This document shows, one piece after another, positions 2,147 to 31,077 of a stretch of DNA of 31,111 nt (its first letter is position 1; every line of letters starts with the position of its first letter). The stretch spans positions 1 to 31,111 of the forward strand of contig CACXLY010000024.1 in NCBI GenBank assembly GCA_902768605.1, given 5' to 3'. Made by a program: the position numbers and the translations under genes. The DNA is from an uncultured Bacteroidales bacterium. GTDB taxonomy: Bacteria > Bacteroidota > Bacteroidia > Bacteroidales > Bacteroidaceae. The notes below the pieces were generated by a model. The model searched no databases. It worked only from the letters and a program-made list of their open reading frames with translations, and was not told the DNA's origin.

Positions 2147-3730
2147 TTATCTCAATTGCTTAATAATACGTCCGTCGGTTGTGCGGGTGATGACGATGCC
2201 CTTCGGCATTGACCTCCGACCATCGGCCGCCTGCAACTTGCGTCCGCTGAGGTCGTAGACGTCATTCTTCATTCTTAATTCTTCATTCTTCATTTCCTTG
2301 ATGCCTGTGCCATCGAAGTACATGTAGCTGATGTTGGAACGATGCTCTTCGCCGCCGCCGCGATAGATGGTCTGCACGCCAAAGCGGTCGAAGCCCGTCT
2401 GGAAGATGTAGAGGGCGTAGGCTTTCTCGTAGATGTAGGAGCGGTTGTAGGCTTCGCTCATCTCCGGAGAGGTGAAGAGGTAGGGAACTTCGTCGATAGG
2501 TTCTGTGAGGTATTTGTATTCGTCGGGATAGAGCGTATAGGGTTCGTCGTCGTCGATGAAGAGCTGATAGCTTACCTTTGAGGGGTCGAGAAAGCGCCCT
2601 TCTGTGTCCTTGAGCGGCACGTTGAGCATGACGATGTTGAAGCCCGCCATCTCGAAATACATATCGATGAAGCCGGAGATGGATGGGTCGGCAGGCGTGG
2701 CAGGCTGCTCGACGAAGGGACGGAAGAGGGGAGCATGGAACTTCTCGCCGCGGTCGACGCCCTCATCGGAATTGTTGACGAGCAAGGCCTGATTCGTCTG
2801 GAAGCTCTGCGTGTCGGCATCGTATGTAAAGGTCGTGCTGCCGTCGGTCCATGTATATATCCAGTCGTAGTAGTTCCCGTCGGTAAGGACGTACTCCTCG
2901 TCGGCACCGCAGAAATAGAGGAGGTAGGTGGAGAGGCTGCCGGCATACTGAAGCGGGAAGGTAATCTTGTCGCCTTCAAACTTGCCCTTCATCCAAGCCC
3001 GTGGGATATTCGACTGCGAGACGCCCTGGACATAGACATCGTCGCCGTCGAATCCTACGCCAACAAGGTGGCCGCTGTTCTCGTACTCCATGGAGTAGGT
3101 CATGGGATGCAAGTCTTCGGGCGGCGTGACGGCATTGACATCCTTGAACGTCAGGACGGTGCCGTAGTCGAGGTAGTAGCTCCACTCGCCGGCGTAGGGC
3201 GTGGTGTAGGCAAGTCCGATGCCGTCGAAGTTGTTGTTGTCGGGGTCGCCGCTCGTGTCGTTGAGTATGAGGTCGTTGCCGTCGATGGTGAAGGTGATGT
3301 TGCCTTGGGTGGAGCAGGTGTAGTCAGTGATAGTGCCGCTGACCTTGACGCGCGCCAGCTGCATGCCGTAGTTGCCGTCGTCGAACCAATAGACGGTCTG
3401 CCCGAGGGGTATGGTGATTGTATTGCCCGAGACAGTACCCTCGACCCACGAACCTGTGGCGGCGTGCGAGATGATGTTCTTGAAGTAGGCCTTCGTGCCG
3501 TCGGGCGAGAAGACTACTTCGGCAGAGATGCCGTCCTGCTGCTCTGCAATGAAGTAAATGGGGGCATAGGTGGCGCCGCCCGAACGGTTGTAGTGGCGCA
3601 GTTCGCCCTCTGGCTGCTCGGTGATGATACCATGGCTATTGGCCTTCATCGGAGCGAAAGCAGGCTGCTGTGCAAAGGCAGGGACGAAGAGGAAGAACGA
3701 AATAGCGTAAAATAAGATTCTGTGTGACAT
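2147..3730 (-). CDS. Exported protein of unknown function with YDLSGR-type C-terminal tail
   Basis: The 527-residue product starts with a signal peptide (about 1-21, ending PAFAQQ). I do not recognise the central part. It is rich in aromatic residues, Asp and Gly, with repeated strand patterns such as VSGTITDY and GNDLILND, consistent with a beta-rich exported domain. The C-terminus from about 475 holds an odd linker (KNEELRMKN) encoded by an A/T repeat of the type otherwise found between genes. It is followed by YDLSGRKL and a short basic end of the kind seen at the tails of many Prevotella and Bacteroides exported proteins. Such tails resemble shortened type IX secretion sorting domains, but this one is shorter than the classical domain. 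The Big2 gene lies 32 nt downstream. The Omp28-like gene is 97 nt upstream across an A/T repeat. No enzymatic motif is visible. Confidence 0.75.
   Translation of the reverse strand: MSHRILFYAISFFLFVPAFAQQPAFAPMKANSHGIITEQPEGELRHYNRSGGATYAPIYFIAEQQDGISAEVVFSPDGTKAYFKNIISHAATGSWVEGTVSGNTITIPLGQTVYWFDDGNYGMQLARVKVSGTITDYTCSTQGNITFTIDGNDLILNDTSGDPDNNNFDGIGLAYTTPYAGEWSYYLDYGTVLTFKDVNAVTPPEDLHPMTYSMEYENSGHLVGVGFDGDDVYVQGVSQSNIPRAWMKGKFEGDKITFPLQYAGSLSTYLLYFCGADEEYVLTDGNYYDWIYTWTDGSTTFTYDADTQSFQTNQALLVNNSDEGVDRGEKFHAPLFRPFVEQPATPADPSISGFIDMYFEMAGFNIVMLNVPLKDTEGRFLDPSKVSYQLFIDDDEPYTLYPDEYKYLTEPIDEVPYLFTSPEMSEAYNRSYIYEKAYALYIFQTGFDRFGVQTIYRGGGEEHRSNISYMYFDGTGIKEMKNEELRMKNDVYDLSGRKLQAADGRRSMPKGIVITRTTDGRIIKQLR
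2264..2295 (-). repeat. A/T dispersed repeat inside a coding region
   Basis: The run attcttcattcttaattctt and its continuation has the same word structure as the intergenic A/T repeats. Here it is read in frame as KNEELRMKN, directly before the YDLSGR tail of the gene at 2147-3730. Confidence 0.75.
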
Positions 3731-3827
3731 AATATAAGGATTATGAATTATGAACTATGAATTAAGAGTGAAGAGTTTGCTACTGCGCTTAACTATGAAC
3801 TATGAATTATGAACTATGAATTATGAA
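3731..3827. repeat. A/T dispersed repeats filling an intergenic gap
   Basis: The 97-bp gap consists almost entirely of words such as tgaattatgaactatgaatt, interrupted by a core gagtttgctactgcgctta at 3773-3791. The reverse complement of that core matches 16 of 19 positions of taagtgcggcagcaaactc at 30176-30194, so this is the same element family in opposite orientation. No promoter or terminator is evident. Confidence 0.75.
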
Positions 3828-5678
3828 TTAGCGATTGTGAACGATTACTTTCTTTTCCTTATTTATATATATACCTTTGTGGCGAGGCTGCTCAACGCGA
3901 CGTCCGCTGAGGTCGTAGAAATAATTATTAATTTTTAATTTTTCGTTTTTAATTTCCTCGATGCCGTCGATTACATCTTCAAGTCCGCTGATGTTGGCTT
4001 TCTCTGCATTCACGGCTTCGCCAGTACGTGTGTCAACGAGGATGGCAACGACACGAATATTGGCTCTGTTGTCGATGGGTTCCTCCGCACTGTTGTTCAG
4101 GCACGTCTTGGTGAACTTGTTGTCGGCGACGTCGAAGGTGTAGGTGTGTGCATAGGGCGTGTTCTCGACGATGTCTGTAGGCAGACTGCCGTCGAGGGCA
4201 GCATCGCCGGCAGCAGATGTCTGTATGGCGACATCGTTGAAATGCATGTCGAGGATAACGCCAGGCTGTGACACCCATGGGGAGAGATAGGGGTCGCTGC
4301 TATAGCTGCTGTTGCCCGAGAGGGCGTTCTGCTGGCTCCAGTAGCGTCCTTTGCCATAGAGGTCGTCGGCCACAAGGACGTACGTCAGGCGGTAAGGATT
4401 GACGGGGAAGTTGCGTATGAAGGTGGCGGTGGCCGTCACATCGATTGTGGTGCCCGATGTCCAATGGGCTTCGAGTTCGAGAGCTGCAGGAGCCATGATG
4501 GCCTGCCGTGTCTTCCAGTCGTTCTCGATGCCAAGGCTCGTGCCGCCGGTACCATAGAAAGGACTCACGGCCAGCACGCGGTCGAGGTAGGCAGCAGGGT
4601 AGCCCGACGGGTTAGCCGGCATCGCGGCAATGACATCCATCTCGTCGCCGTCGTGATAAGCTATGCCCACGAAATCGTCAGGATGCAGCCTTGACATCGC
4701 CTCCATAGCCGCTGTGCCAAGAGGACAGTACTGACACCACGCTCCAGTATATTCCTCCATGAGGGGCTTGTGCTTGGGCAACTCCGAGAGGAAAGGCATC
4801 TCGAAGCTAACAGTGGCTTGCTCGTCCTCGTTGTCCGAGCCGTTGACAGAGATGATGCTGAGCGTGATGGTGCGTGTGCCAGGTGTCTGTACAGCAGGTA
4901 TCGTGACGTTGATTTTCTTCTGCTGACCGTAGTAGGCAGTGCCGAAGCTCGTGTTGACGCGCCGTTCCGTGGCGTTGCCGTCCATCTCTAAGGAATAGAC
5001 AATATTCCTGATGGGTACCGTGCCATGATTGATGACGGTGAGAGACAGCGTAGTCTGTTTGCCGACAGAAGCATAAGCCGCCAGGTCATCGGGCAACAGC
5101 AGCGAGGCAGCACGCTCGTGAATGCCTTCGCCACCAAGACGCAACAGGAGAGCCGAGGTGCCAAACATGGCCGTAGTCTGCCATTTGCGATAGGTGCGGG
5201 AGGTGTGGATGTAGAGTTCCTCGCTTCCGTTGAAGCACATGAGGGGCGTCTGGTTGGCATCGGTCGCCGTCGTTCCTATCGACGACACCTCGAACGAGTA
5301 GCCGGCATAGAAGCCTTCTTCAGTGATGACATAAGGTTCGTCAAACGTCACGTCGGCCCAGCTACCGGAGGGCGTAAAGCTGACGCTGCAGATGTCGGGG
5401 ACATTCTTGCCGCTGGCAAGGGTCAGTTCCGATGAGAGCCAAGCCATGTAGTCGTGGGCATTCCTCGCAGCTGAATTGATGGGAATGCGCAGCCCGCGCA
5501 CTTCCTTTCCCACGAGGAAAGGGTCGTCGAAATGAATGGCTACGTCGTAGGTCTCGACTTTCTTCGTACCTTTGGCTGTCAAATCGCCATTGCCTTGATA
5601 GAGACCATAGAGGAGGTCGTCGGCCTGAACCGCCCAGGCGGTCATGAATAATGATAATGCAAGTAAAAGCTTTTTCAT
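3828..5678 (-). CDS. Exported Omp28-like, thioredoxin-fold protein
   Basis: The 616-residue product has a signal peptide (about 1-19, ending AVQA). Residues about 20-185 are a beta-rich exported region. Residues about 188-295 look like an Ig-like or CARDB-like segment (LLLPDDLAAY... TLSLTVINHGTVPIRNI...). The segment from about 305 reads MEEYTGAWCQYCPLG, the start of an Omp28-type thioredoxin-like domain, with a CxxC pair at C315 and C318. Omp28 relatives are outer-membrane or surface proteins of Bacteroidetes, and a CxxC could act in thiol chemistry, though this is not shown for most members. After an A/T repeat-encoded linker (KNEKLKINN) the protein ends in a YDLSGRRV tail of about 40 residues. 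The start lies 36 nt after the T-tract of the ATPase operon terminator, so it should need its own promoter, but I see no clear one. Confidence 0.8.
   Translation of the reverse strand: MKKLLLALSLFMTAWAVQADDLLYGLYQGNGDLTAKGTKKVETYDVAIHFDDPFLVGKEVRGLRIPINSAARNAHDYMAWLSSELTLASGKNVPDICSVSFTPSGSWADVTFDEPYVITEEGFYAGYSFEVSSIGTTATDANQTPLMCFNGSEELYIHTSRTYRKWQTTAMFGTSALLLRLGGEGIHERAASLLLPDDLAAYASVGKQTTLSLTVINHGTVPIRNIVYSLEMDGNATERRVNTSFGTAYYGQQKKINVTIPAVQTPGTRTITLSIISVNGSDNEDEQATVSFEMPFLSELPKHKPLMEEYTGAWCQYCPLGTAAMEAMSRLHPDDFVGIAYHDGDEMDVIAAMPANPSGYPAAYLDRVLAVSPFYGTGGTSLGIENDWKTRQAIMAPAALELEAHWTSGTTIDVTATATFIRNFPVNPYRLTYVLVADDLYGKGRYWSQQNALSGNSSYSSDPYLSPWVSQPGVILDMHFNDVAIQTSAAGDAALDGSLPTDIVENTPYAHTYTFDVADNKFTKTCLNNSAEEPIDNRANIRVVAILVDTRTGEAVNAEKANISGLEDVIDGIEEIKNEKLKINNYFYDLSGRRVEQPRHKGIYINKEKKVIVHNR
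3920..3957 (-). repeat. A/T dispersed repeat inside a coding region
   Basis: A run of attattaatttttaattttt type is read in frame as KNEKLKINN. It abuts the 19-bp string cgtccgctgaggtcgtaga, which encodes YDLSGR and is identical in the gene at 2147-3730 (2231-2249). Confidence 0.75.
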
Positions 5679-7158: not shown

Positions 7159-8904
7159 TTATGAATTAAGCAAGTTCTCAACTTGCGAAATGTAGTCGTA
7201 GTATTGTTCGCTCTTATAGGTGGAGTAGTTCATCTGCTTGCAGAGGTTAATCATCTTCTTGAAGTAGTCGATGACCTGCAGGAAGGTGTCGAACTTGTAG
7301 TCGTCTTTGTCGCAGATTCTGGTGACGAGGTTGAGAATCTCTTCCTGGCGCGCGAGCGGCGTCACAGCGTCCACCTCGTCGAAGGCATCCTGCTGAAGGA
7401 TAACGTAGTCAATCACTTCGGACTTCCAGAAGACGATATGGTAATCGACGGGCACGCCGTCGTCGCCCAGGATGTTTATCTGCTCGGCAATCTCCTTGCC
7501 GCGCTGCATGCGGGTCTTCAGGGCGAGCACCTTCGGAATCCATTCCTCGTTGATGTGCTCCTTGATGTATTCCGCGAACTCGGGGTACTCGAGGTATTTG
7601 GAGTAAGAGTCGATAGGGTTGACGGCGGGGTAACGTTTCTTGTCGGCACGGTCCTGCTCGAGTGCGTAGAAGCAACGTGCGACCTTCTTCGTGCTTTCAG
7701 TCACGGGCTCCTTCAGGTTACCGCCGGCAGGCGATACGGTGCCGAGGAAGGTGACGGAGCCCACCTCGCCATTGTTGAGGTAAACATAGCCGGCACGTCC
7801 GTAGAAGTTCGAGATGAGGGCACCGAGGTCCATGGGGAAGGCGTCGGGACCTGGCAACTCTTCCATACGATTGGACATCTCGCGAAGCGCCTGAGCCCAA
7901 CGGGACGTGGAGTCGGCCATCAAGAGGACGCGGAGACCCATCGAGCGGTAGTACTCTGCCATTGTCATAGCTGTATAGACGGAGGCTTCGCGGGCTGCGA
8001 CAGGCATGTTGGAGGTGTTGGCAATGATGATGGTACGCTCCATCAGCTTGCGGCCAGTGTGCGGGTCAACCAACTCGGGGAACTCGGTGAAGATTTCCAC
8101 GACCTCGTTGGCGCGTTCGCCGCAGGCTGCAATTACCACGATGTCGGCCTCTGCCTGCTTTGATATGGCGTGCTGCAGCACGGTCTTGCCAGTGCCGAAC
8201 GGTCCGGGGATGAAGCCCGTGCCGCCTTCCACGATGGGGTTGAACGTGTCGATGGTGCGCACGCCTGTCTCCAGGAGCTTGAATGGACGCGGTTTCTCGC
8301 GGTAGTTTGTCATCGCGAACTTCACGGGCCAATGCTGCACCATGTCGACCTTGATGTCGTTCCCCTGCTCGTCTGTGAGGACGGCAATCGTGTCGTGTAT
8401 CTTGTACTTACCCTTCGCCACGATGCTCTTCACGGTAGCCGTGCCCTTCATCTGGAAGGGCGCCATTATTTTCAGGGGCTGATGGTTCTCCTCGACTTTG
8501 CCGAGCCATGCGCTTGCCTGCACTCTGTCGCCGACTTTTACGAGGGGTTCGAACTCCCAGAGACGTTCGGCGTCGAGTGCTTCGGTGTACTGTCCGCGCT
8601 TGAGGAAGACGCCGTCCATCTTGTCGAGGTCGTTCTGCAGACCGTCGTAGTTGTGGCTGAGCATGCCGGGGCCGAGCTGAATCTCGAGCATGTGTCCCGT
8701 GAACTCTGCCTCAGCACCGACCTTCAGTCCGCGCGTGCTTTCAAAGACCTGCACATATACGTCTTGTCCGACCACCTTGATGACCTCAGCCATCAGCCGG
8801 TCGCCGCCTGTCGTGATGTAGCATATCTCGCCCTGGAGCACCGGTCCGTCGACACGGAGCGTCACCATGTTGGAGACTACGCCACTTACAATTCCTTTTG
8901 TCAT
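7159..8904 (-). CDS. ntpA: V/A-type ATPase subunit A (catalytic)
   Basis: The 581-residue product is the catalytic subunit, hydrolysing or making ATP at the V1 head. The P-loop GPFGTGKT lies at 234-241. The catalytic Glu is in ACGERANEVVE (about E263), and the arginine- and serine-rich segment LMADSTSRWAQALREMSNRMEELPG follows. The alpha/beta ATPase signature PAVNPIDSYS is present. A long non-homologous region between the N-terminal barrel and the P-loop, typical of V/A-type A subunits, is seen at about 110-200. No intein interrupts it. The four-helix-bundle gene lies 57 nt upstream, separated by an A/T repeat arm. Subunit B follows after 5 nt. Confidence 0.98.
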   Translation of the reverse strand: MTKGIVSGVVSNMVTLRVDGPVLQGEICYITTGGDRLMAEVIKVVGQDVYVQVFESTRGLKVGAEAEFTGHMLEIQLGPGMLSHNYDGLQNDLDKMDGVFLKRGQYTEALDAERLWEFEPLVKVGDRVQASAWLGKVEENHQPLKIMAPFQMKGTATVKSIVAKGKYKIHDTIAVLTDEQGNDIKVDMVQHWPVKFAMTNYREKPRPFKLLETGVRTIDTFNPIVEGGTGFIPGPFGTGKTVLQHAISKQAEADIVVIAACGERANEVVEIFTEFPELVDPHTGRKLMERTIIIANTSNMPVAAREASVYTAMTMAEYYRSMGLRVLLMADSTSRWAQALREMSNRMEELPGPDAFPMDLGALISNFYGRAGYVYLNNGEVGSVTFLGTVSPAGGNLKEPVTESTKKVARCFYALEQDRADKKRYPAVNPIDSYSKYLEYPEFAEYIKEHINEEWIPKVLALKTRMQRGKEIAEQINILGDDGVPVDYHIVFWKSEVIDYVILQQDAFDEVDAVTPLARQEEILNLVTRICDKDDYKFDTFLQVIDYFKKMINLCKQMNYSTYKSEQYYDYISQVENLLNS

Positions 8905-8910
8905 ATCTAT

Positions 8911-8946
8911 TTAATTCATAATTTTTAATTCATAATTCATAATTAA
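8911..8946. repeat. Left A/T arm of the inverted-repeat element holding the IVP gene
   Basis: This 36-bp stretch built of ttaattcataat words is identical at 35 of 36 positions to 10207-10242, the left arm of the neighbouring empty element. The opposite arm is at 9324-9360. Confidence 0.85.
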
Positions 8947-8961
8947 GCTACGCTTCCAGCC

Positions 8962-9327
8962 TCATTCATCTTTGGCGAATGTCGTCTTGACGATGCTCGT
9001 CAGCAGCTTAATTAATTCTCGACAGTCTTTGAGCAGATTGTCTCCCTGCTCTGGGGTTAAGTATTCAGTCGCTTGCAGCAGTTCTATCCAGTATTCACTT
9101 TCACTTGCTTCTTTCAGCGAGATGTTCATCTTCGTTCCGAAATCCGGTCGCGTCTGTCCTCGCAATGCTTCCTTTATGTTAGCTCCGATGCTTGTGCCGC
9201 ACCGCAGCAGTTGTTTCGACATATCATATTCACATTTCTCCTTAATCAAGTATTTCCTGAGATTCACACAGCGGACGGCAAAAGCAAAGCTCTTCATCAG
9301 TACAGCATTGGTCTCAGCATCCCTCAT
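8962..9327 (-). CDS. Four-helix-bundle protein of the 23S rRNA intervening-sequence (S23/IVP) family
   Basis: The 121-residue, entirely helical product carries the family's hallmark pattern: KSFAFAVRCVNLRKYL, then MSKQLLRCGTSIGANIKEAL, then DFGTKMNISLKEASESEYWIELL and a C-terminal LLTSIVKT helix. Members were first found inside 23S rRNA intervening sequences. They are also related to the accessory Avd proteins of diversity-generating retroelements. The cellular role of stand-alone copies is unknown. The gene is placed between the DUF2764 and A genes of the ATPase operon, where no such gene is expected. It is enclosed by A/T-rich inverted arms. The start codon touches the arm, and the 30-nt gap to the upstream gene consists only of repeat. 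The 6-bp string ATGAGG occurs both at the start codon and just after the stop. It is best read as a passenger, not an ATPase subunit. Confidence 0.9.
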   Translation of the reverse strand: MRDAETNAVLMKSFAFAVRCVNLRKYLIKEKCEYDMSKQLLRCGTSIGANIKEALRGQTRPDFGTKMNISLKEASESEYWIELLQATEYLTPEQGDNLLKDCRELIKLLTSIVKTTFAKDE

Positions 9328-9360
9328 AATTATGAATTGTGAATTATGAATTGTGAATTA
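9324..9360. repeat. Right A/T arm of the element holding the IVP gene
   Basis: The stretch starts ctcataattatgaattgtga and is in inverted orientation to 8911-8946. It closely matches 10269-10303, the right arm of the empty element. It includes the start codon of the IVP gene and the stop codon of the DUF2764 gene (9358-9360), so the repeat sets both gene ends. Confidence 0.8.
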
Positions 9361-10200
9361 TATTGTGAATTCTTCGGGGACTTGCGCCTCGCTGCGAAGG
9401 TCGTTGATTATCTTCTGGAAGGTTTCCTTGCCCTGCTCGACGTCGAGTTTCGCCCAGCGTTGCTGCATCGCGAGTTTGCAGAGGTAAGCGAAGACGGCTT
9501 CCATGTTGAAGGGCTCGAAGAAGGTGCGTTCGTCGAGCCATATCCACTTGAAGGCGTCTATCATCTTCTCTTTGCGGACGGGGTCTTCCTCCTCGACGAT
9601 CTTCATGAGCTGAGGGATGTAGTCGAGTTCGTGACTGAGGTTGAAGTCCTTCGTCTTGTTCTCGCGTATCATCTCCTGCACTTCGCCCTCGCCTTTGATG
9701 AAATCGCCGACACTCCAGCCCTGTGCGCGTGCCAGCATGGCTGTGAGGACGTTGGTGATGTCGAGGTTGAGCTTGTACCAGCGGCGCATCATGCGGTTGG
9801 GGCAGGTGCGGATAGCGTAGTCGAGGAACTGGTAGGCCATCTCGTCCTCGGGGAAGTAGCCTGCCTTGTCCTTGTTGAATGCGTACTCACGCGCAAAGAT
9901 ACTCATGAAGGCTGGGTAGCGGTGCACGTTGAAGTTGAGTTCTGTGGCGCTGGTGATGAGGTCGCGCAGCTGGTCGAGCGTGAAGTTGCCCCACTGGTCG
10001 ATGCTTGCGTCGGGATTCTTGAGGAGCTTGACGAGGTTGCTGCAGTCGAACTGCAGGAAGAAGTAGAAGAGCAGCTTCTTGTCGAGCGGCGTGAGCTGTT
10101 CGTCGCACTGCTCGCGCATGTCCTCGATGCTGAGGCCCGGCTTCGCGTCCTTCAGGTCGATGTCCGGCAAGCCGGCTATCATGCAATAGTAATTGGCCAT
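9358..10200 (-). CDS. DUF2764 family protein, V/A-ATPase operon component
   Basis: The 280-residue product starts MANYYCMIAGLPDI, the usual opening of the DUF2764 family. This family is encoded in Bacteroidetes V/A-ATPase operons between subunits E and A. It is mostly helical, with a strongly conserved WYKLNLDITNVL segment around 140-155 and no signal peptide. The position, and the lack of a classical C subunit in these operons, suggest that it takes the place of the C/d-type subunit linking the V1 stalk to the membrane ring. That role is inferred, not shown. The last codons (EFTI) and the stop are made of A/T repeat sequence, so the native C-terminus may have been replaced when the repeat arrived. 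The subunit E gene lies 100 nt upstream across a second A/T inverted element. Confidence 0.9.
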   Translation of the reverse strand: MANYYCMIAGLPDIDLKDAKPGLSIEDMREQCDEQLTPLDKKLLFYFFLQFDCSNLVKLLKNPDASIDQWGNFTLDQLRDLITSATELNFNVHRYPAFMSIFAREYAFNKDKAGYFPEDEMAYQFLDYAIRTCPNRMMRRWYKLNLDITNVLTAMLARAQGWSVGDFIKGEGEVQEMIRENKTKDFNLSHELDYIPQLMKIVEEEDPVRKEKMIDAFKWIWLDERTFFEPFNMEAVFAYLCKLAMQQRWAKLDVEQGKETFQKIINDLRSEAQVPEEFTI

Positions 10201-10206
10201 CTTTTT

Positions 10207-10303
10207 TTAATTCATAATTGTTAATTCATAATTCATAATTAATGCCTTCGCTTGACTAAGGGCGTAGCCTCATTATGAATTGTGAATTATGAATTATGCA
10301 TTA
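10207..10303. repeat. Empty A/T inverted-repeat element between subunit E and DUF2764 genes
   Basis: The left arm 10207-10242 and the right arm 10269-10303 are inverted copies of tgaattatgaatt words around a core of 26 nt (tgccttcgcttgactaaggg...). Both arms nearly match those that surround the IVP gene 900 bp away, in the same orientation. The stop codon of the subunit E gene (10301-10303) lies at the very end of the right arm. The transcript could fold into a long hairpin here. Confidence 0.85.
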
Positions 10304-10888
10304 GAATAACATTTCAACGAGCTGCGGACGCAGGAAGTTTTTGAAGTAGGTTTCGAACTCTTCTTTGCCGAAGTTCACTTTGTAGCTGCCGTCGGCCGGG
10401 GCGATGGAGAACAGGGTGTCCTTGCCGTTGACCTTGTTGATGGTTACGCCCTTGTCGAGGAGCGCCTTTGCCTTGGCGGCGAAATAGGCCTTGAGGCTGT
10501 CGGCTTCGCTGCTGGAGATGACGATGGGTTCGTTGGCAGACCATTTCTCGGCCAGAGCGACAGCAAACTGCCCGAGGAAGTCGGGGCTTGCGGTGAGGCC
10601 CTTGACGGCTTCCTTGACGACGCCGTCGGTGAGCACGTTCGTCACTTCGCTCTTGAGTGCGCTAAGCGCTTGCCCTGTGTACATCTTGAGCTCGCTGCGT
10701 GTGTTGGCAGCGGTCTCGCTGGCCTGCTTCTGCGCTTGGGCCGTGATGTCCTGTGCTTGCTGGCGGGCCTGTTCCAGTATTTTCTCTGCTTGCCCCTTTG
10801 CTTCGGCGATGATGCGTTCGGCTTCTGCCTGTCCCTTTTCCACGCCTTCGCGCAGGATTTTCTCGGTGAGTTCTTGTATCTTTTCCAT
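10301..10888 (-). CDS. ntpE: V/A-type ATPase subunit E (peripheral stalk)
   Basis: The 195-residue product has a long N-terminal helix (about 1-90) rich in Ala, Gln, Glu and Lys (EAERIIAEAKGQAEKILEQA), the typical coiled coil of the E subunit. It is followed by a globular C-terminal domain (about 100-195) that caps the A3B3 head. Subunit E normally pairs with subunit G/H in the peripheral stalk; no G gene is visible, as is usual in this phylum. It is the first gene of the operon. The start is chosen because it follows a plausible promoter at 10921-10960 and no earlier in-frame start is likely. The sequence upstream of the ATG is A/T-rich, as in other Bacteroidetes genes. Confidence 0.92.
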   Translation of the reverse strand: MEKIQELTEKILREGVEKGQAEAERIIAEAKGQAEKILEQARQQAQDITAQAQKQASETAANTRSELKMYTGQALSALKSEVTNVLTDGVVKEAVKGLTASPDFLGQFAVALAEKWSANEPIVISSSEADSLKAYFAAKAKALLDKGVTINKVNGKDTLFSIAPADGSYKVNFGKEEFETYFKNFLRPQLVEMLF

Positions 10889-12440: not shown

Positions 12441-12467
12441 TGAGGGGGCCACTGGAGGGGTCGGACG

Positions 12468-12679
12468 TTCCTTGCTGTGGCGTCGGGCGTTCCTTGCTGT
12501 AGCGTTTGGCTTTCCTTGCTGTGGCGTCGGACGTTCCTTGCTGTGGCGTCGAATTCCCCCTTAAGGGGGGGGTAGGGGGCTAATAAGGCTAATAAGGCCA
12601 ATAAGGCTAATAAGGCCAATAAGTCCCTTGCTGTGGCGTCGAATTCCCCCTAAAGGGGATAGGGGGTCCCTTGCTGTGG
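12468..12679. repeat. 22-bp period repeat array with GAATTCCCCC elements
   Basis: The core ttccttgctgtggcgtcg starts at 12468, 12490, 12512 and 12534, exactly 22 bp apart. Variant copies start at 12624 and 12667. A palindromic element gaattcccccttaagggggg follows at 12551, with a second copy at 12641. Between them, 12581-12622 holds a 9-bp tandem repeat (aataaggct/aataaggcc). The same 22-bp unit is found inverted at 20820-20940. Together with 12398-12440 and the hairpin at 12710, this accounts for most of the 393-bp gap between genes. Confidence 0.85.
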
Positions 12680-12709
12680 CGTTTTTGCCGGCGACGTGTT
12701 TCTATAGCA

Positions 12710-20819: not shown

Positions 20820-20940
20820 ACAGCAAAAGACCCCCTAACCCCCTTTAGGGGGAATTCAACGCTACAGCAAGGAAAGTCGATTCCCACAGCAAGGAAAGTC
20901 GATTCCCACAGCAAGGAAAGCTCGACGCTACAGCAAGGAA
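20820..20940. repeat. Third 22-bp period array, inverted relative to 12468-12679
   Basis: The core acagcaaggaa occurs at 20864, 20886, 20908 and 20930, exactly 22 bp apart, with a partial copy at 20820. A ccccctttagggggaattc element lies inside it, as in the array near the fucosidase gene but in reverse orientation. With the two preceding features, this explains most of the 813-bp gap at 20222-21034. Confidence 0.85.
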
Positions 20941-20983
20941 AAACGAACGCCACGCGAGGGGTTGGCTGGGGCCTCGCGTGGCG
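20941..20983 (-). terminator. Intrinsic terminator after the first CotH protein gene
   Basis: A perfect 12-bp G/C-rich stem (cgccacgcgagg at 20948-20959, cctcgcgtggcg at 20972-20983) has a 12-nt loop. On the minus strand it is followed by the T-rich TTCGTTTTTCC. It lies 51 nt after the stop codon at 21035. Confidence 0.75.
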
Positions 20984-21034: not shown

Positions 21035-24000
21035 TTACATGCTCTTCAGGAGCAGCACGACATCCTGGGCGTTGATTTTCCCGTCGGCATTGAGGTCGGC
21101 AGCCTCGGGGACGAAGCCTTCGACGGGTTTGCCTACGATGTAGAGCCTGAGCGCTTCGTAGTCGAGCATGTTCACCTGGCCGTCGCCGTTCACATCGCCT
21201 GGGACGACGGGTTGCGGCGTGTCGAAGTAGAAGTCGTAGGGTGTATAGTTGGTGGCTCCGAGCGTAGTGTCGTCCTCCCGGCGGTCGAGGAGTTTCCATC
21301 CGCTGTCGTTCGGGTCGTCGCTTTGTGTGTTACTGCCAAAGAGCGACCACGTGACGGGGTTGCGGCCGGGGAACGTCTGCGTGTCGGCTGCCGTGGTAAT
21401 GCGATAGCCGGACAACGCGACTTGTTCGCCTGCGTCTATATATATATATAATGTGGTGCCTGCATAGAAGTTGGCACAATACTTCGTGTGGATGTCGTCG
21501 TCGAAGAGATCGACGGGGTCGTGGTCCTTGATGTATGTGCCGGTCCAAGCGTATGTGGAGAGCGGCGTCACCTCGTTGCCGTCGGTGTCGAGGAGGTCGA
21601 ACTCGCAGAACTGTATGGTGTTGCCGCTGGCTACCTTCTCGATGGCGAGCTGATAGTAGCGGTGTCCGGGCAGTGGGGCAATGACGGTGACGGTGCAGGT
21701 GTCGCGCAGGGTGCCCACGTTCGGTGCGGAGACGATGATGTCGGCTGTGCCTACGCCTACCGCCTTGACCATTCCGTCGGCATCGACCGTAGCGACGGAC
21801 TCGTCGGTGCTGGTCCAGAGCATAGTGACGTCCTGCATGGCCGTCGGCGTATAGCTTACCAGGAGCTGGAGCTCCTCGCCTTGCGGGATGGTGGCGGTGT
21901 GCTGGTCGAGGGTGAGCGTCTTGAGCGTGTGCGGGATATAGAAGTCGTAAGGCGTGAAGTTTGTCGCCTCGAGGGTCCAATCGTCCTCGCGCTCGTCGAT
22001 GAGCGTCCATCCCTCATCGTCGGGGTCTTGCAGCTGCACGTTGCTGCCGTAGAGTCTCCATGAAGAGGGGTTTCGCTCGGGTACTTCGCCCGTGTCGTTG
22101 GCGGTGTAGATGCGATAGCCATAGGCATCGACGTCGCTGCCGGCATCGAAGAGGAAGTAGGCCCTGCCGGGGAAGTAAGCGCAGTATTTCGTATAGAGCT
22201 GTCCGTCGGCTGCATTCGGCCAGTCCTCGCCGCTGTAGCCTTCGGGCCCGCCTGCATAGATGCTGAGGTCGCCGACCTCGTAGAGCGACTCGTCGAGGAT
22301 GTCGAACTCGCTGAACTGTATGGTGCCGTGCCGTCCGCCCTGCACCTTCGTGATGACGAGGTTGTAGTAGCGGAACCTCATGGCATCGCCGGTGGAGTTG
22401 GTGTAGCGCCCTTCCTTCAGATAGACCCTGCCGCTTGCTTTGCTGAGCACGGGCGACGGGTCGTGCTGCCGTCCGTTGTCGAGGTTCTGGCGCCACCTGT
22501 CGCGCTGGCCGCTGCCATTGAGCAGGTAGCAGAGCTCGCCGTTATCCACCTGGGTGGGCGTCATGTGGTTGGTCTGCATGGAGGTGTAGTCCCAGCAGTT
22601 CTCCACGACGGTACTCTTGTCGGCGAAAGCGAACTCCTTGCCCTCCGTAGCGCCCGTGATGGTGCCCAGATTGTAGCAGTCCCGCACGTTCAGCTTGCCG
22701 GCAGAGGGCGCGATGATGGCAGCAGCATTCTCGTGAGCCGTGACGGTGCCGAGATTGCAGCAGTCGGAAAGGTTGAAGACAGACAACAGACGTCCGTAGC
22801 CGACGATACCGCCGGCATTTCCCTCAGTAGCGGTGACGCTGCCCCTGTTTTCGATGCCCGAGATGATGGGCGTGCCGTTGCGTGCGTAGCCGAGAAGCAT
22901 GCCGACATACGACGTGCCCTCTGCGCTGCAGCTTTCGTCGAAGATGATGTCCTTCAGCGTACAGCCGCTGACGTATCCGAAGAGGCCCACGCCCTCCGTC
23001 CCGCTGATGTGCAGGTTGCGAATGGTATGCCCCTGTCCGTCGAAGGTGCCGGCAAAGAGTTTCCTCGAGGTGCCGATGGGCTGGAAGTCCTCGTTGAAGG
23101 CCGTCATGTCGATGTCGGCCGTTAGCGCGGCCTGTGCATCCGTCTCGCCGCCCTCGTTGACCATCTGGCAGAATGTGCAGAGGTCGAGGCCGGAGCCTAT
23201 CTGATAGACGCCGCCCACCTGGCGAAGCGTGCCGTAGGACAACATGGCGTCCATCCAGGCCACACGGTTATAGACGAAGTCGCGGACGCGGTCCACCTCC
23301 GCCTCCCACGAGCCCGGAACGGCAGGGTTAAGCGAGAGCCACTGGTTCAGATAAGGCCAGCGATAGAAGTTCAGGGTGGCGGAAGCGCGTATCTCATTCC
23401 TGAGCGAATCCACGTCGGCAGCCACGTCGGCCGGCTCGAACTTGCCGCTGCGGCGAAGCTTTGCCCACATCTCCTGCATCTGAGCTAAAGCGGAGGGGTC
23501 GGAAAGCACGCGGCTGACGAACTGCGTCCAGTTGCCCGTGTCGCGCACTATGTACGTCCATTCCATCCGCTCGTTTGCGGGATAGGTCGTCTGGTCGTTC
23601 TCGAGGGCGAGGTCCGCGTCCCAGACAGGGCCTACATAGAAATGGTCGTCGCCACGCTCCTTGTAGAGGAAGACCTGGCAAAGCATGTCGGTGTTGCCGT
23701 TGAACTCGCTCGTCAGGATGTGCCTCAGGAACGTCTCCATGTCGAGAACGGAGCGCATGCCCGTCTCCGGGTCAGTATAGTTGGGGCCGAAGACGATGTC
23801 CTCCATGGCGTTCCATGTGTTCTGTATGTAGTTGAACTGCTCGGGCTGGATGATGTCTTCATCGGGGTCGTGCACCGTAATGGGATTGCCGTGCGACGAC
23901 CAGAAGTAGTATGGCTCGCGCGTCGCGTTGTTGTCCACCTCGACATAGTAGCCGCCCGTGATGTTCTCCTCATCGATGTCGTCCTCCGTCATCTCGGTGA

Positions 24001-24958
24001 TGCTGATGCGATTGGGGTCCACCGAGACGGCATCAGCCAGGGTGTAGGTGCCATGGTAGTCGCCATTGACGAGCAAATCAACGACCTGGCTCCACGGCGT
24101 CCATTGCATCTCGGCACGCTTCGACATGGCCCATGCCACGGGATTGCGCATGAGCGTCTTGTCGCGGTAACTGTTGATGAGCACCCACTTCCGACACTTC
24201 GTGGGCGATTCGTTTGCCGAGCCTCGCATCACGTGGTGGCTCTTGCCGTCGTTATACTTCATGCGGAACGCCTTGTTCTCATGCGTGGCCGAATAGTTGC
24301 CGCGGACTCGGAACAGGATAGGGTATTCCTGGATGCGCGTCCCGCCGTCGTAAATGAGCACGGATTGCGACTCGAAGTCCTCGCCCCGGTTAACGGGCAT
24401 GATGTTGTCCTGCACGTGTACGCTGAGGGTCGGCAAATTGGTGACCTGGTAGAACTGACTGTCGTCGCCCTCCCCCGCATGGCCGTAGAACTTCAGTTCG
24501 GCGATGTTGCAAAACGACCCTGCACTGCCCACATAGCGCACGTAGCGGAAGCCGCGGCTCACATTGATGTCGATTCGCGCCTCAGCGTCTTTGGCGGGTT
24601 TCTCGCTTATGAGGTAAAGCGGCAGGGCATCCATGAAGTCGGGACTGTTGGCACCTTCGAAGAGGCTGAGCAACATGCGGTCGGGGCCCATGCTTCCCGG
24701 TGCGGGCGTGAAGCTGACGCGCGTGATGACGTGGGGCTCGCCGAGGTCAAGGCCCACCCATTGCAGCTTGTCGAGATTCGTGCTGTAATACGTTGAGGGA
24801 TTTCCGTCGAAGGCCAGGAGCGCCTTTGACTCCGTACCGGAGTACATCAGAGAACCGTCGAGCAGATGGTCGACGGTGGCATCGTAGGCGAATGCCGTGC
24901 CATAAACAATAGTCAGATAAAGCAGGGCAACGAGCCTGCGGTAGAGGGGTGTTATCAT
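21035..24958 (-). CDS. CotH-kinase surface protein with discoidin, GLUG-like, Big2 and dockerin-like modules
   Basis: The start is set at the ATG of MITPLYRRLVALLYL because it opens a signal peptide (about 1-24); the frame stays open 51 codons further upstream, but that part has no signal features. In the 1307-residue product the order is: F5/8-like domain about 25-160; CotH kinase-like domain about 175-575 (FRVRGNYS at 217-224, RDKTLMRN, LVNGDYHGTYTLAD, VWDADL with D447 and D449); GLUG-like repeats about 585-790 (GLFGYVSGCTLKDIIFDE); F5/8-like domain about 863-1008; Big2 about 1011-1092; a third F5/8-like domain about 1099-1245; and a dockerin-like pair at about 1253-1307 (GDVNGDGQVNMLDY, ADLNADGKINAQDV). 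CotH domains are atypical kinases that modify secreted proteins; a role in surface protein phosphorylation is inferred. The gene is a tandem paralog of 25189-29580. Confidence 0.87.
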   Translation of the reverse strand: MITPLYRRLVALLYLTIVYGTAFAYDATVDHLLDGSLMYSGTESKALLAFDGNPSTYYSTNLDKLQWVGLDLGEPHVITRVSFTPAPGSMGPDRMLLSLFEGANSPDFMDALPLYLISEKPAKDAEARIDINVSRGFRYVRYVGSAGSFCNIAELKFYGHAGEGDDSQFYQVTNLPTLSVHVQDNIMPVNRGEDFESQSVLIYDGGTRIQEYPILFRVRGNYSATHENKAFRMKYNDGKSHHVMRGSANESPTKCRKWVLINSYRDKTLMRNPVAWAMSKRAEMQWTPWSQVVDLLVNGDYHGTYTLADAVSVDPNRISITEMTEDDIDEENITGGYYVEVDNNATREPYYFWSSHGNPITVHDPDEDIIQPEQFNYIQNTWNAMEDIVFGPNYTDPETGMRSVLDMETFLRHILTSEFNGNTDMLCQVFLYKERGDDHFYVGPVWDADLALENDQTTYPANERMEWTYIVRDTGNWTQFVSRVLSDPSALAQMQEMWAKLRRSGKFEPADVAADVDSLRNEIRASATLNFYRWPYLNQWLSLNPAVPGSWEAEVDRVRDFVYNRVAWMDAMLSYGTLRQVGGVYQIGSGLDLCTFCQMVNEGGETDAQAALTADIDMTAFNEDFQPIGTSRKLFAGTFDGQGHTIRNLHISGTEGVGLFGYVSGCTLKDIIFDESCSAEGTSYVGMLLGYARNGTPIISGIENRGSVTATEGNAGGIVGYGRLLSVFNLSDCCNLGTVTAHENAAAIIAPSAGKLNVRDCYNLGTITGATEGKEFAFADKSTVVENCWDYTSMQTNHMTPTQVDNGELCYLLNGSGQRDRWRQNLDNGRQHDPSPVLSKASGRVYLKEGRYTNSTGDAMRFRYYNLVITKVQGGRHGTIQFSEFDILDESLYEVGDLSIYAGGPEGYSGEDWPNAADGQLYTKYCAYFPGRAYFLFDAGSDVDAYGYRIYTANDTGEVPERNPSSWRLYGSNVQLQDPDDEGWTLIDEREDDWTLEATNFTPYDFYIPHTLKTLTLDQHTATIPQGEELQLLVSYTPTAMQDVTMLWTSTDESVATVDADGMVKAVGVGTADIIVSAPNVGTLRDTCTVTVIAPLPGHRYYQLAIEKVASGNTIQFCEFDLLDTDGNEVTPLSTYAWTGTYIKDHDPVDLFDDDIHTKYCANFYAGTTLYIYIDAGEQVALSGYRITTAADTQTFPGRNPVTWSLFGSNTQSDDPNDSGWKLLDRREDDTTLGATNYTPYDFYFDTPQPVVPGDVNGDGQVNMLDYEALRLYIVGKPVEGFVPEAADLNADGKINAQDVVLLLKSM

Positions 24959-24989
24959 TAATTTATGTTTCACTTGTTCTTTTTCTATT

Positions 24990-25152
24990 GTAGTTAAGTA
25001 GTTAAGTAGATATCGCTTCGCTCGTCCTTCGGACAGTAGCTCTTGCGCTCCGTAGGTGCTCAGGCGCAGGCGGAGAAGCCAATACCTCTTTCGCCTGCTT
25101 TCTGCTTCCAAAGCATTCGGCTTAACTACTTAACTACTTAACTACTGACTAC
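24990..25152. repeat. Inverted-repeat element between the two CotH genes
   Basis: gtagttaagtagttaagtag (24990-25009) is mirrored by cttaactacttaactacttaactac from 25121. The core includes cgcttcgctcgtccttcgga. The layout (short tandem words as inverted arms around a small G/C-rich core) is the same as for the A/T elements at 8911-9360 and 10207-10303, but with a different arm word. The 230-bp gap holds no other feature I can support. Confidence 0.75.
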
Positions 25153-25188: not shown

Positions 25189-28100
25189 TCACTTGAGTAT
25201 CTTTTTGCCGTTTATGATGCTAATGCCTTTCTGCATCTTGCCGATGCGTTGGCCTGCGAGGTTGTATATCTTGAGGTCCGTCTTTTCTGTAGTAAAGGGG
25301 GCAGAGGCGATGCCTGTCTCGAAGTCTTCGAAGTTGAATGCCTCGACCGCCGTACCGGCCGGAAGGTCGAAGTAGGCGCGATAGCCCTTGAGGCTCGTCT
25401 CCAAGCCAGCCTTCACGATACTGCCGTCCGTGGTCACCACATAGACGTCGTCGGTGCTGTTCGTCAGCTGCCACTCGCCTGCTTTCACAGGAGCGAAGGT
25501 GCTGCGGAAGAAGTAGCGGTTCCGGACGACTGCATAAGAGCCATTGGTGTCGTCCGCATCAATCCCGACATTCGAAAGCACGATGTCGTCCGCGATGGCG
25601 GCAGGCACGTAGATGACGTACGGCAGGGTTGCCTCGATGGTTGCCACAGGAGAGAAGCCGAGCTCACCATCCGTGAGCTGGTCGAACTTGTAGGCTCTGG
25701 CATCCGCACCAAAGACGTCCTCTATGTTGTTGATAGAGAAGGGCAGACAGATGGTGTTCCAACCCTTGTCGAAAGGTCGGCGGAGGGTAACGTTGTCGTA
25801 AATGAAGGGATGGATTCCCGCGAAGGTGTTCTCGTCGAGCAACAAGTCGTTGGCAGGGAGCTCCGAAAGGGTGAAGTTGTAGGCTGTGTAGTTTGTGGCG
25901 CCGAGTGTCAAGTCGTCCTCTCGTCTGTCGAGAAGCGTCCAGACGCCCTCGTTGGGCAATTCGCTCTGCGTATTGCTGCCGAAGAGCGACCACGAGACGG
26001 GGTTGCGGCCCGGATTGTTCTTGGTGTCGTTGGCCGTAGTGAACCGATAGCCGGAGAGCTGCACTTGGCGGCCCGCATCGATATAGATGTACAGAGAATT
26101 GCCAGACGAGAAGGGTCCGCAGTATTTCGTATAAACGTTATCGTCGAAGAGGTTCGCCTGCACCTCGTCGCTGTAATGCGAACCTGTATAGGCATAAAGC
26201 GTGAGGGGCTCTATCTCGTTGCCCTCCTCGTCGAAAAAGTCTATCTCGGAGAGCTGTATTGTTGGGCCGCTGAGCACCTTCTCGATGGCAAACTGATAGT
26301 AGCGGTATCCGGGTTGCCGTTCCTGGACGGTGACGGTGCAGGTGTCGCAGAGGGAATTGTCGTCGATTGCCGTGACGATGATGTCGGCTGTGCCTACGCC
26401 TTTCGCTTCGACGTGTCCCTTGCCGTTGACCGTTGCGACGGCGGGATTGGTCGTTTGCCATTGGAGTTCGAGCCCCTCCATTGTGCTGGGCATGCAGCTG
26501 GTATGGAGCTGCAGCTTCTCGCCGCAGACGACCGTTGCGGTCTGCTGGTCGAGGGTCAGCGACTTCAGCGGGTCGGAGATGTAGAAATCGTAGGGCGTAT
26601 AGTTCGTGGCGCCAAGCGTCCAGTCGTCCTCGCGCTCCTCGATGAGCTCCCATCCCGCGTCGTCCGCGTTGTAGAGCTTTGTGTTGCTGCCATAGAGCCG
26701 CCAGGAGCTGGGGTTGCGCTCGGAGTGATTGCCCGTGTCGTTGGCAGTATAGATGCGATAGCCGCAGAGCCCGACGGTCCGCTTTGCGTCGAAGAGGAAA
26801 TAGGCGTAGCCGCGGAACGAGCCGTTGCAGTACTTCGTGGTGACGCTGTTGTCGGCGGCATTTTCCCAGTTCTCGTGGGAGATGCTCGATTCCGTGCCGG
26901 CGTAGATGTAGAGGTCCTGTGCCTCCTCGCCCCTCTCGTCGAGTACGTCGAATTCCGAGAACTGAATGCAGCCGTTGACGCCACCTTGCAGTTTCGTCAC
27001 GACAAGGTTATAGTAGCGGTATTTCGGCGGATTGGGATTGTAGTTCGTGAAGTGGCCTTCGTTCTCGTAAATGATGCCGCCCTTGCTCCAGAGCACGGGG
27101 AAGGCTTGATGCGGCTTGCCGTTATCGAGGTTCTGATGCCAGATGTTGCTGCCGGCATTTGCATTGATGTGATAGCACAGCCAGCCGTTATCGACCTGCT
27201 CGGGCGTCATGTTGTTGGTCTGCTTGGAGGAGAAGTCCCAGCAGTTGTCGATGGAGGTGCCCTTCGTGCCGTAGGCGAACTCCTTCCGGTCCGAAGCGCC
27301 GGCGACGCTGCCGATGTTGTAGCAGTTCGCGATGGTCAGGTTGCCGCCCGACGCGCCGACAAGGGCTCCTGCTCCGCTGGTGGCAGTGATGCTGGCCGTG
27401 TTGCTGCAATTCGTCATGCTGAGGGAATTGGCGTAGCCCACGATGCCGCCGGCCGAACTGCCCGATGCGGTGACGCTGCCGTGGTTCTCGATGCCGCTGA
27501 TGGTGGCCGTGCCGTTGTAGGCATAGCCCACAAGCATGCCGACCCTGCTGGCTCCTGCTACGGAGCACGTCTCGTCGAAAATGATATTGCTGAGCGTGCA
27601 GTTGGCGGTATAGCCGAACAGACCAGTGTTGTTGTTGCCCGTCAGGTGGAGGTTGCGGATGGTATGTCCCTTGCCGTCCAGGCTACCCGCAAAGTTCTTC
27701 GACAGCGTGCCGATGGGCTGGAACATCTCGTTGCAATTCGCCATGTCGATATCCGCCACGAGCACCGCCTCGGCATCCGTCTCGCCGCCCTGGTTCACCA
27801 TTTGGCTGAAGGTGCACAAGTCCATGCCGGAAGCTATCTGATAGATGCCGTCCACCTGATGCACGCGTCCGTAGGACAGCATCTCGTCCATCCAGGCCAC
27901 GCGGTCACGTACGAAGTCGCGCACCCTGTCCACTTCCAGCTCCCAAGACCCCGGGATGTCGGGGTTGAGCGAAATGTATTGGGTAAGATATGGCCAACGA
28001 ATGAAGTTGAGATTTGCAGAGGCGCGTACCTCGTTCCGCAGCGAATCGACGTCCGCCGCCACCTCTTCGGGCTCGAATGCTCCTTTTTGGCGAAGCATTG

Positions 28101-29580: not shown

Positions 29581-29613
29581 ATCATTACGCGCGTGAGTGC
29601 AAATTAAGCGCCG

Positions 29614-29621
29614 CAAAGATA
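29614..29621 (-). promoter_or_regulatory. Candidate -7 box of the second CotH gene
   Basis: TATCTTTG on the minus strand, followed by CGGCGC, fits the Bacteroidetes TAnnTTTG -7 element exactly. It lies 33 nt before the chosen start codon and supports that start over the earlier in-frame ATG at 29685. A good -33 box is not visible. Confidence 0.55.
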
Positions 29622-29688
29622 GTATTTTTTTCGATAGGTTGTTTAATTGCCGCGTTTTTTTTCCCGTTAAAGGAGAGAATTGCAATAA

Positions 29689-29763
29689 AATTCACAATTC
29701 ACAATTCACAATTCGTAATTCATAATTCACAGTTGTTAATTCATAGTTCATAGTTCATAATTT
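29689..29763. repeat. A/T dispersed repeats
   Basis: About nine copies of words such as attcacaattcacaattcat and ttcatagttcat lie directly beside the 282-bp inverted-repeat unit that follows. No gene is present from 29581 to 30244. Confidence 0.75.
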
Positions 29764-30054: not shown

Positions 30055-30060
30055 TATTGC

Positions 30061-30230
30061 CTAATTAATTGCGGCAGCAAATTCTTCATAATTCACAATT
30101 CATAATTCATAATTCATAATTAATTGCGGCAGCAAATTCTTCACAATTCATAATTCTTAATTCATAATTCATAATTAAGTGCGGCAGCAAACTCTTAATT
30201 CTTCTTTCTTAATTCTTAATTTTTAATTCT
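30061..30230. repeat. Three tandem copies of an A/T element with a gcggcagcaaa core
   Basis: The core gcggcagcaa starts at 30071, 30125 and 30181 (spacing 54 and 56), and each copy is followed by aattctt/aattcataattcat words. A reversed copy of the core is at 3773-3791. This fills the space between the MITE-like unit and the HU gene terminator. Confidence 0.8.
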
Positions 30231-30712: not shown

Positions 30713-30985
30713 TGTTAGAGTTTAGAGTTTAGAGTTTAGAGTTGAGAGTCAGTTTTGAAGTTTAGTGTTTAGAGTTTAGAGTCAGTTTAGTTTTTGTGGA
30801 GTTATGATGTGGAGTTATAATTGGGAGTTATAATTGGGAGTTATAATGGGGAGTTATAATGGGCCGATACATTTGGCTCCTCATAACTTCTCCTCATAAC
30901 TTCTCCTCATAACTTCTCTTCTTAACTCCTCTTCATAACTTCTCTTCATAATTTTTAATTTTTAATTTTTAACTCTTAATTTTTA
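30713..30985. repeat. Run of several simple tandem repeats in the HU leader
   Basis: Three arrays follow each other: a 7-bp unit (tttagag) from 30718 to about 30785; a unit of about 15 bp (ggagttataattgg) at about 30800-30862; and a 13-bp unit (tcctcataacttc) at about 30878-30955, ending in A/T-rich attttt words. The second and third are partly complementary (gagttat and ataactc-like words) around gccgatacatttggctcc, so the transcript could fold. Only 30986-31077 of this 402-bp gene-free stretch lacks repeats. Confidence 0.8.
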
Positions 30986-31077
30986 TTATGCTAAGTTGAG
31001 CTTTCTGTCGTTTCGAATTGCGCACTTCGACGTTTCATGTTTGCTCACTTGGCAGGGTGTCGTTTGTTTTGACGATA

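Follow-up and report, generated by a model that had tools for sequence, protein, structure and literature searches.

An IVP gene between inverted heptad arrays

The DNA analysed here (the window) comprises positions 1 to 31,111 of contig CACXLY010000024.1 of an uncultured Bacteroidales bacterium (assembly GCA_902768605.1). It contains a V/A-ATPase operon on the minus strand, in the order E, D (DUF2764-like), IVP, A, B, where IVP is a 23S rRNA-intervening sequence protein; the operon's host is close to rumen Prevotellaceae/Bacteroidales metagenome-assembled genomes (MAGs). The IVP gene is enclosed by two inverted A/T-rich arms and forms with them what we call the IVP element. A second pair of such arms, with no gene in between, lies about 840 bp away. 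The IVP element occupies the D-A junction and the gene-less element the E-D junction:

7159-8904, minus strand: V/A-ATPase subunit A, the next operon gene after the IVP element
8909-8945: arm of the IVP element on the stop-codon side (downstream in operon direction), made of AATTCAT heptads; 37 nt, 86% complementary to 9327-9363
8962-9327, minus strand: IVP gene, four-helix bundle, 121 aa (PF05635, TIGR02436, 2RLD)
9327-9363: arm of the IVP element directly adjoining the start of the IVP gene; also overlaps the TAA stop of the DUF2764-like open reading frame (ORF)
9358-10200, minus strand: operon gene preceding the IVP element (D), which we take to be DUF2764-like; no NCBIfam match
10199-10239: first arm of the gene-less element, with 83% complementarity to 10272-10312 over 41 nt
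10243-10268: core of the gene-less element, 26 nt; carries GCTACGCCC on the minus strand
10272-10312: second arm of the gene-less element, 41 nt
10301-10888, minus strand: V/A-ATPase subunit E; its top NCBIfam match (E 6.4e-23) does not reach the curated cut-offs

The arms of both elements are tandem arrays of the heptads AATTCAT and AATTCAC (unit AATTCAY). An earlier description of this locus from the letters alone (the sequence-only reading) had given the coordinates, the identity of the IVP gene, the matching arms of the two elements in one operon and the 26-nt core, all of which hold. It had also reported that the left arms agree at 35 of 36 positions, and 8911-8946 indeed differs from 10207-10242 at a single one. 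The upstream operon gene takes its stop codon from the IVP element, and the element provides the gene downstream with an A/T-rich leader.

The window protein matches PF05635 (E 1.7e-26), TIGR02436 (E 2.1e-28) and the structure 2RLD (E 4.3e-36, 57% identity), which is the IVP BT_0352 of Bacteroides thetaiotaomicron VPI-5482. Its AlphaFold2 model, with a mean predicted local distance difference test (pLDDT) score of 94.3, matches 2RLD and 2GSC, and more weakly Avd of diversity-generating retroelements; the predicted fold is like that of Avd, yet unrelated bundles score nearly as high, and by sequence the protein belongs to PF05635. 2GSC, an IVP structure solved in 2006 (XCC0516), comes from Xanthomonas campestris, a species with GGGAATC heptads. 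The function of the IVP/S23 family is given as unknown in PMC4990558. The gene is under strong purifying selection, the ratio of nonsynonymous to synonymous substitution rates (dN/dS) being 0.04-0.08 in five pairs; these values are rough, with dS near 1 in three pairs and above 2 in two. PF05635 was the sole family found in the IVP element. Neither a transposase nor any gene besides IVP was found in the element, and it encodes no reverse transcriptase, a negative that covers the element and not the remainder of the window. No rRNA was matched in the window by Rfam at gathering scores, the site of the element being the V/A-ATPase operon.

Arms around IVP genes and at operon junctions

For each gene, an arm score was obtained by aligning the 220 nt upstream with the reverse complement of the 220 nt downstream, and a score of at least 14 was used as the cut-off. 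All 16 related genomes contain IVP matches, 15 of them above the Pfam cut-off. Together with the operon loci and the window they provided a related set of 93 distinct IVP genes, after 3 of 109 matches (E > 1e-10) and 13 identical genes had been dropped. About two dozen weaker IVP matches (< 47 bits, mostly ORFs of at least 185 aa) were left out, and all genome-scan matches above approximately 50 bits lie in the retrieved loci except G004:C75, which is at a contig end. In the related set, 84 of the 93 IVP genes have arms, compared with 22 of 312 other genes of these loci; a score of 15 is attained by none of 465 shuffles. Among the control genes, the cut-off is reached by 15 of the 151 that have an IVP gene within 450 nt and by 7 of the 161 that do not. 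When seven of the nine IVP genes below the cut-off were rescored with another start and wider flanks, four rose to 14.5-52.5, one proved to be at a contig end and two stayed low; the other two are fragments of one broken gene. The count of 84 was kept as originally scored, without the rescored genes.

A wider Bacteroidota sample gave arms for 40 of 70 IVP genes and 10 of 186 controls, and at a score of at least 20 for 17 and 1 of these, respectively. Its 70 loci (30 returned by the search and 40 picked by genome with their flanks unseen) represent the high-scoring end of the list, and 4 of 74 ORFs were dropped for short flanks. The enrichment of inverted arms around IVP genes, which the sequence-only reading had proposed as a check, was thus found in both sets.

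On plasmids, all 12 IVP genes scored have arms (score 14-39); these are 12 of 27 records, chosen from a table with flanks unseen, from Bacillota, Spirochaetota, Chloroflexota, eight cyanobacteria and one Bacteroidota, and control genes were not scored there. The gene ends of one locus (L221) were set manually, and in another (L225) the matching arms are 150-195 nt away from the gene. Several plasmid IVP genes lie inside gene pairs of one system: hsdS-hsdR, csx2-cas1, helicase-methylase and cas2-cas1 (opposite strand). The IVP genes of Anabaena and Nostoc plasmids (L225, L226) and of a Pseudanabaena plasmid (L229) are situated between cas2 and cas1 (opposite strand) or between csx2 and cas1, and a figure legend on CRISPR-linked proteins names a 23S rRNA IVP domain (PMC10910872). 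With respect to orientation, 62 of 86 IVP genes are codirectional with both neighbours. In viral contigs, eight stretches matched the IVP pattern and none was confirmed.

A scan with the D protein yielded 40 loci of the same operon. At the D-A junction, the IVP gene is present in 7 of 39 relatives (L002, L011, L019, L022, L023, L024, L034), in every case with its arms. One further relative (L007) has a gene-less AATTCAT element at this junction, and the 31 remaining relatives have neither, three of them (L003, L015, L033) carrying a different, GC-rich sequence. Gene and both arms therefore come and go as a unit, as had been put forward for testing by the sequence-only reading. At the A-B junction, IVP and arms are found in 3 of 38 relatives: in L011, which has them at both junctions, and in L007 and L009, which have them at A-B only. 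The other relatives present a varied picture at A-B. A mere gap of 7-17 bp is seen in 18 of the 38; L002 and L024 have AATTCAT arrays minus the gene; L028, L029, L038 and L039 have AGTTGACA-type arrays, with a short one in L037; L016 and L034 have GGTTATAA-type arrays; L003, L019, L022 and L023 have a different inverted element with GC-rich arms (CCCTCCC / GGGAGGG); and the remainder have mixed spacers. At the E-D junction, ten of 39 relatives have, like the window, a gene-less AATTCAT element.

Occupied and empty junctions were compared by eye for a target-site duplication, and none was clear. The sequence-only reading had noticed the string ATGAGG at the arm/core junction of both window elements and behind the IVP stop codon, and had likened it to a short duplication. 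The string is located as claimed, but at the IVP gene it is the start codon that comes after the last unit of the arm. It is absent from the core and junctions of all of 20 gene-less copies from two related genomes and from all ten gene-less E-D copies of the relatives, and the A-B copies of the IVP gene in L009 and L011 start with ATGAAG; we therefore do not regard it as a duplication signature.

Arm units, gene-less copies and exchange between species

The best arm period is 7 in 62 of 84 elements of the related set and 8 in 15; in the Bacteroidota sample these periods account for 34 and 5 of 40. The arm autocorrelation peaks at 7, 14 and 21, with weaker peaks also in control upstream regions. 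The median arm is 36 nt long, and the median gap is 9 nt to the start codon and 11 nt to the stop codon. The unit itself varies among elements (AATTCAT, AGTGAAG, ATTTACG, GATTAAG, AGTTGACG, GGGGCAA, GAGGTCG and others). Hence the arms are not one dispersed A/T repeat family, as the sequence-only reading had supposed, but element-specific heptads of many sequences.

The arm unit follows IVP kinship, unrelated loci included. In the IVP tree, the clade of the window protein has AATTCAT arms and its sisters have AGTTCAT (L079) and AGTCCAT (L081). The two arms of one element have a similarity of 23-26 at every IVP distance, whereas the same arm compared across elements drops to 8-12 when IVP identity is below 55%; the comparison comprises arm-bearing elements only, a selection that raises the within-element value. 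Among pairs of elements that have no recognisable homology in their outer flanks, the arms are alike (at least 14) in 4 of 5 at an IVP identity of at least 0.7, in 37 of 69 at 0.55-0.7, in 71 of 619 at 0.4-0.55 and in 10 of 1743 below 0.4. The gene and its arms are thus found, inherited and transferred together, and the arms stay matched to each other while their sequence drifts. From the arm enrichment, the joint presence and absence and the tracking of the unit with kinship, we conclude that IVP and arms behave as one heritable element.

Gene-less arrays are numerous in some of the related genomes. In the 16 related genomes, the count of AATTCAYAATTCAYAATT ranges from 0 to 175 per genome and that of its reversed control is 0 or 1, so the AATTCAY arrays are not due to chance. 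Among the matches listed for G006 and G002, 26 neighbouring array pairs are convergent (two of them around IVP genes), none is divergent and one is on the same strand. The 20 gene-less copies mentioned above were picked where the array scan had shown a convergent pair. Their loops measure 23-139 nt, and 8 of the 20 share the GCTACGCCC core of the window element. At one locus (L213), GGTTAGA-type inverted arrays are nested in the loop of an AATTCAT-type hairpin. Without correction for kinship, AATTCAY arrays are commoner where the AATTCAT-type IVP clade is present (nine genomes) than where it is absent (seven genomes; one-sided p 0.008), and among 151 genomes of the family an IVP match is found in 17 of 30 with AATTCAY arrays and in 24 of 121 without (odds ratio 5.3, p 1.4e-4). 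A strict genome-wide dependence of the arrays on a cognate IVP was only partly borne out for AATTCAY, and was not for the unit AGTTGACR.

Two pairs of relatives indicate, by sequence comparison, that IVP and arms have spread horizontally between species, since near-identical IVP copies reside in diverged hosts. In L009 and L011, identity at fourfold degenerate sites is 1.00 for IVP, 0.61 for A and 0.73 for B. The element is identical at 447 of 448 positions, with 31 mismatches in the 300 bp before it and 18 in the 300 bp after it, and the mismatch-free tract extends into both A (by 53 bp) and B (by 41 bp). In L019 and L034, the corresponding identities are 0.98 for IVP, 0.45 for E and 0.68 for A; mismatches cease within D, 10 bp from its end, and resume 3 bp ahead of the start of A; four lie in between, and an arm of L034 has an additional stretch of 33 nt relative to L019.

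The window contains further repeats. More heptad arrays of the same A/T family lie at 3726-3844, 29683-29757 and 30055-30229; among them, 30055-30219 is a tandem repeat of higher order, with a period of 55 bp and a GCGGCAGCAAATTCTTC core. Tandem 13-bp units at 30798-30990, GGAGTTATAATTG and then CTCCTCATAACTT, are roughly inverted on either side of a short core and resemble a longer-period form of the heptad-arm design. A dispersed repeat of 22-bp units around CCTTGCTGTGGCGTC is present in inverted copies 8 kb apart (12446-12682 and 20832-20982). Two tandem, evidently paralogous ORFs of 1358 and 1498 aa (21035-25111 and 25189-29685, minus strand) share direct DNA repeats with 71-85% identity between the two.

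Interpretation and relation to known systems

We consider it probable that the IVP gene and the inverted heptad arrays on its two sides constitute a single compact element of about 450 bp, with paired arms, a cognate IVP and gene-less derivatives. The element lives in the gaps between genes, often within operons. The likeliest of its proposed properties is that its arms would pair in the transcript, and perhaps also in single-stranded DNA, and so place the IVP in a loop closed by a long stem, as in 23S rRNA intervening sequences. RNase III would be expected to accept such a stem in mRNA as a substrate, which would make an insertion into an operon tolerable. The element may thus be tolerated because it is located between stop and start codons and is perhaps cut from the transcript. 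Next in likelihood, the IVP, a protein kept by purifying selection, would recognise the stem of its own clade and serve as the cognate factor; after that, gene-less copies consisting of arms and a short loop would be non-autonomous derivatives, comparable to REPINs in their relation to RAYTs. Last in this order, spread between species would proceed mainly through recombination, either at the cognate junction or with arms already resident, and moves to new sites would be rare. When folded as RNA, the 103-nt gene-less element reaches -27 kcal/mol (z -5.77), and none of 200 shuffles is as good.

Several results weigh against this reading. As a whole, the 460-nt IVP element has a predicted RNA fold just mildly better than those of its shuffles (z -2.78, 1 of 100 as good), and 30 of the 70 IVP genes of the Bacteroidota sample are below the arm cut-off. 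Among the 30 family genomes with AATTCAY arrays, an IVP match at 1e-25 is lacking in 13. Six genomes (G001, G005, G006, G007, G008 and G014) contain AGTTGACR arrays, and no IVP with this unit was found there. As the mismatch-free tract of L009 and L011 reaches into A and B, it agrees with homologous recombination and not with transposition. Flanking sequence is common to both members in 97 of 102 close IVP pairs (identity at least 0.7), from which we conclude that movement is rare. The AGTTGACR arrays and these common flanks speak against a strict helper role of the IVP, which the sequence-only reading had offered beside that of cargo, whereas the tracking of the unit with IVP kinship, a pattern seen in sequences, favours a cognate partner over mere cargo. 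Binding of IVP to the arms, cleavage of the stem and IVP-driven mobility are all inferred and none was observed.

The heptad hairpins might instead be an independent class of intergenic repeats, generated by slippage and hairpin template switching, with IVP genes as guests that lodge or recombine in them. Template switching, which maintains matched arms in quasipalindrome correction, could by itself keep the arms alike, gene-less inverted arrays of several units sit at the same operon junctions and genome-wide, and AGTTGACR arrays exist where no IVP of that unit was found. Even so, we think this explanation unlikely: the unit follows IVP kinship even between unrelated loci, gene plus arms are what the species have in common, and just 7 of 161 genes with no nearby IVP have such arms. 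A further explanation borrows the mover of REPINs, for which inverted doublets and a gene bordered by repeats of its own family are described (PMC3116915): a Y1 (HUH) transposase elsewhere in the genome would move the hairpins and the IVP would be cargo. The layout is closely similar, with short-spacer inverted doublets dispersed in intergenic DNA, a fixed polarity (26 to 0) and a protein gene flanked by its own repeats. However, the gene here encodes an IVP four-helix bundle and not a tyrosine (Y1) transposase, the arms are short arrays of a freely varying unit, and Y1 was not matched in 6 of the 16 related genomes (G001, G004, G005, G009, G011, G012), which are MAGs and possibly incomplete; two of these, G005 and G012, have 159 and 96 array matches. 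We give this explanation very little credence, and scarcely any to RNA-based copying, in which an Avd-like IVP would lend the hairpin RNA to a reverse transcriptase acting in trans. The fold predicted for the IVP is similar to that of Avd, but unlike a diversity-generating retroelement the window element encodes no reverse transcriptase; in the 16 genomes, RVT_1 was found in seven and missing from nine, and five MAGs, again possibly incomplete (G001, G004, G005, G009, G012), yielded neither Y1 nor RVT_1. As a general mover, both enzymes were rejected after they had not been found in several array-rich MAGs.

The closest described case is the rRNA intervening sequence (IVS) of Coxiella burnetii, which has an S23p ORF, a 28-bp terminal stem and tandem heptamers before the ORF and is excised by RNase III with a cut at the first repeat (PMC4990558); we thus read the window element as an operon-dwelling form of the same thing. 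IVP ORFs have also been described in rRNA insertions of candidate phyla radiation (CPR) bacteria (PMC11270868). A 23S rRNA IVS resembles the element in having an IVP/S23p ORF within terminal inverted repeats, patchy presence and horizontal transfer, and in C. burnetii also the heptamers ahead of the ORF (PMC4990558). The window element differs in its site between protein genes of an operon, outside any rRNA gene, and in having heptad arrays on both sides, many copies and units per genome and gene-less copies. From insertion sequences and miniature inverted-repeat transposable elements (MITEs) it differs in that the full-length element has no known transposase. Heptameric repeats such as GGGAATC in Xanthomonas, the heptads of Nostoc and TAACTGA in Beggiatoaceae are likewise intergenic 7-nt arrays, often in convergent pairs (70 cases in Xcc and 75 in Xac; PMC4692102), and they include cyanobacteria and Bacteroidetes (PMC4679880); the available portions of their published descriptions contain no link to an IVP gene. 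In a literature search that left most subscription journals uncovered, PMC4990558, in its available part, was the only source found to bring IVP and heptamers together (in one rRNA IVS), and we do not claim absence from print.

Taken together, the earlier interpretation is partly supported, being right in spirit and wrong in detail. The parts of the element are known, their assembly and range are new, and there is a fair chance that it deserves a separate class. More tentatively, and as a possibility that we rate below even chances, IVP genes across phyla could encode the hallmark protein of a distinct class of mobile DNA that has no transposase, composed of self-matching hairpins whose heptad "address" drifts freely, stays the same in the two arms and is recognised by the resident IVP. 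The rRNA IVS would then be a special case that arrived in rRNA, and the heptameric repeats of Bacteroidota, cyanobacteria and Xanthomonas would largely be gene-less copies. The IVP/S23 family gains a consistent genomic home and a candidate ligand, each protein having its own repeat word. This would join three puzzles that have mostly been kept apart, namely rRNA intervening sequences, orphan IVP genes and heptameric intergenic repeats, and it puts a name to the intergenic hairpins that remodel operon spacers in Bacteroidota.
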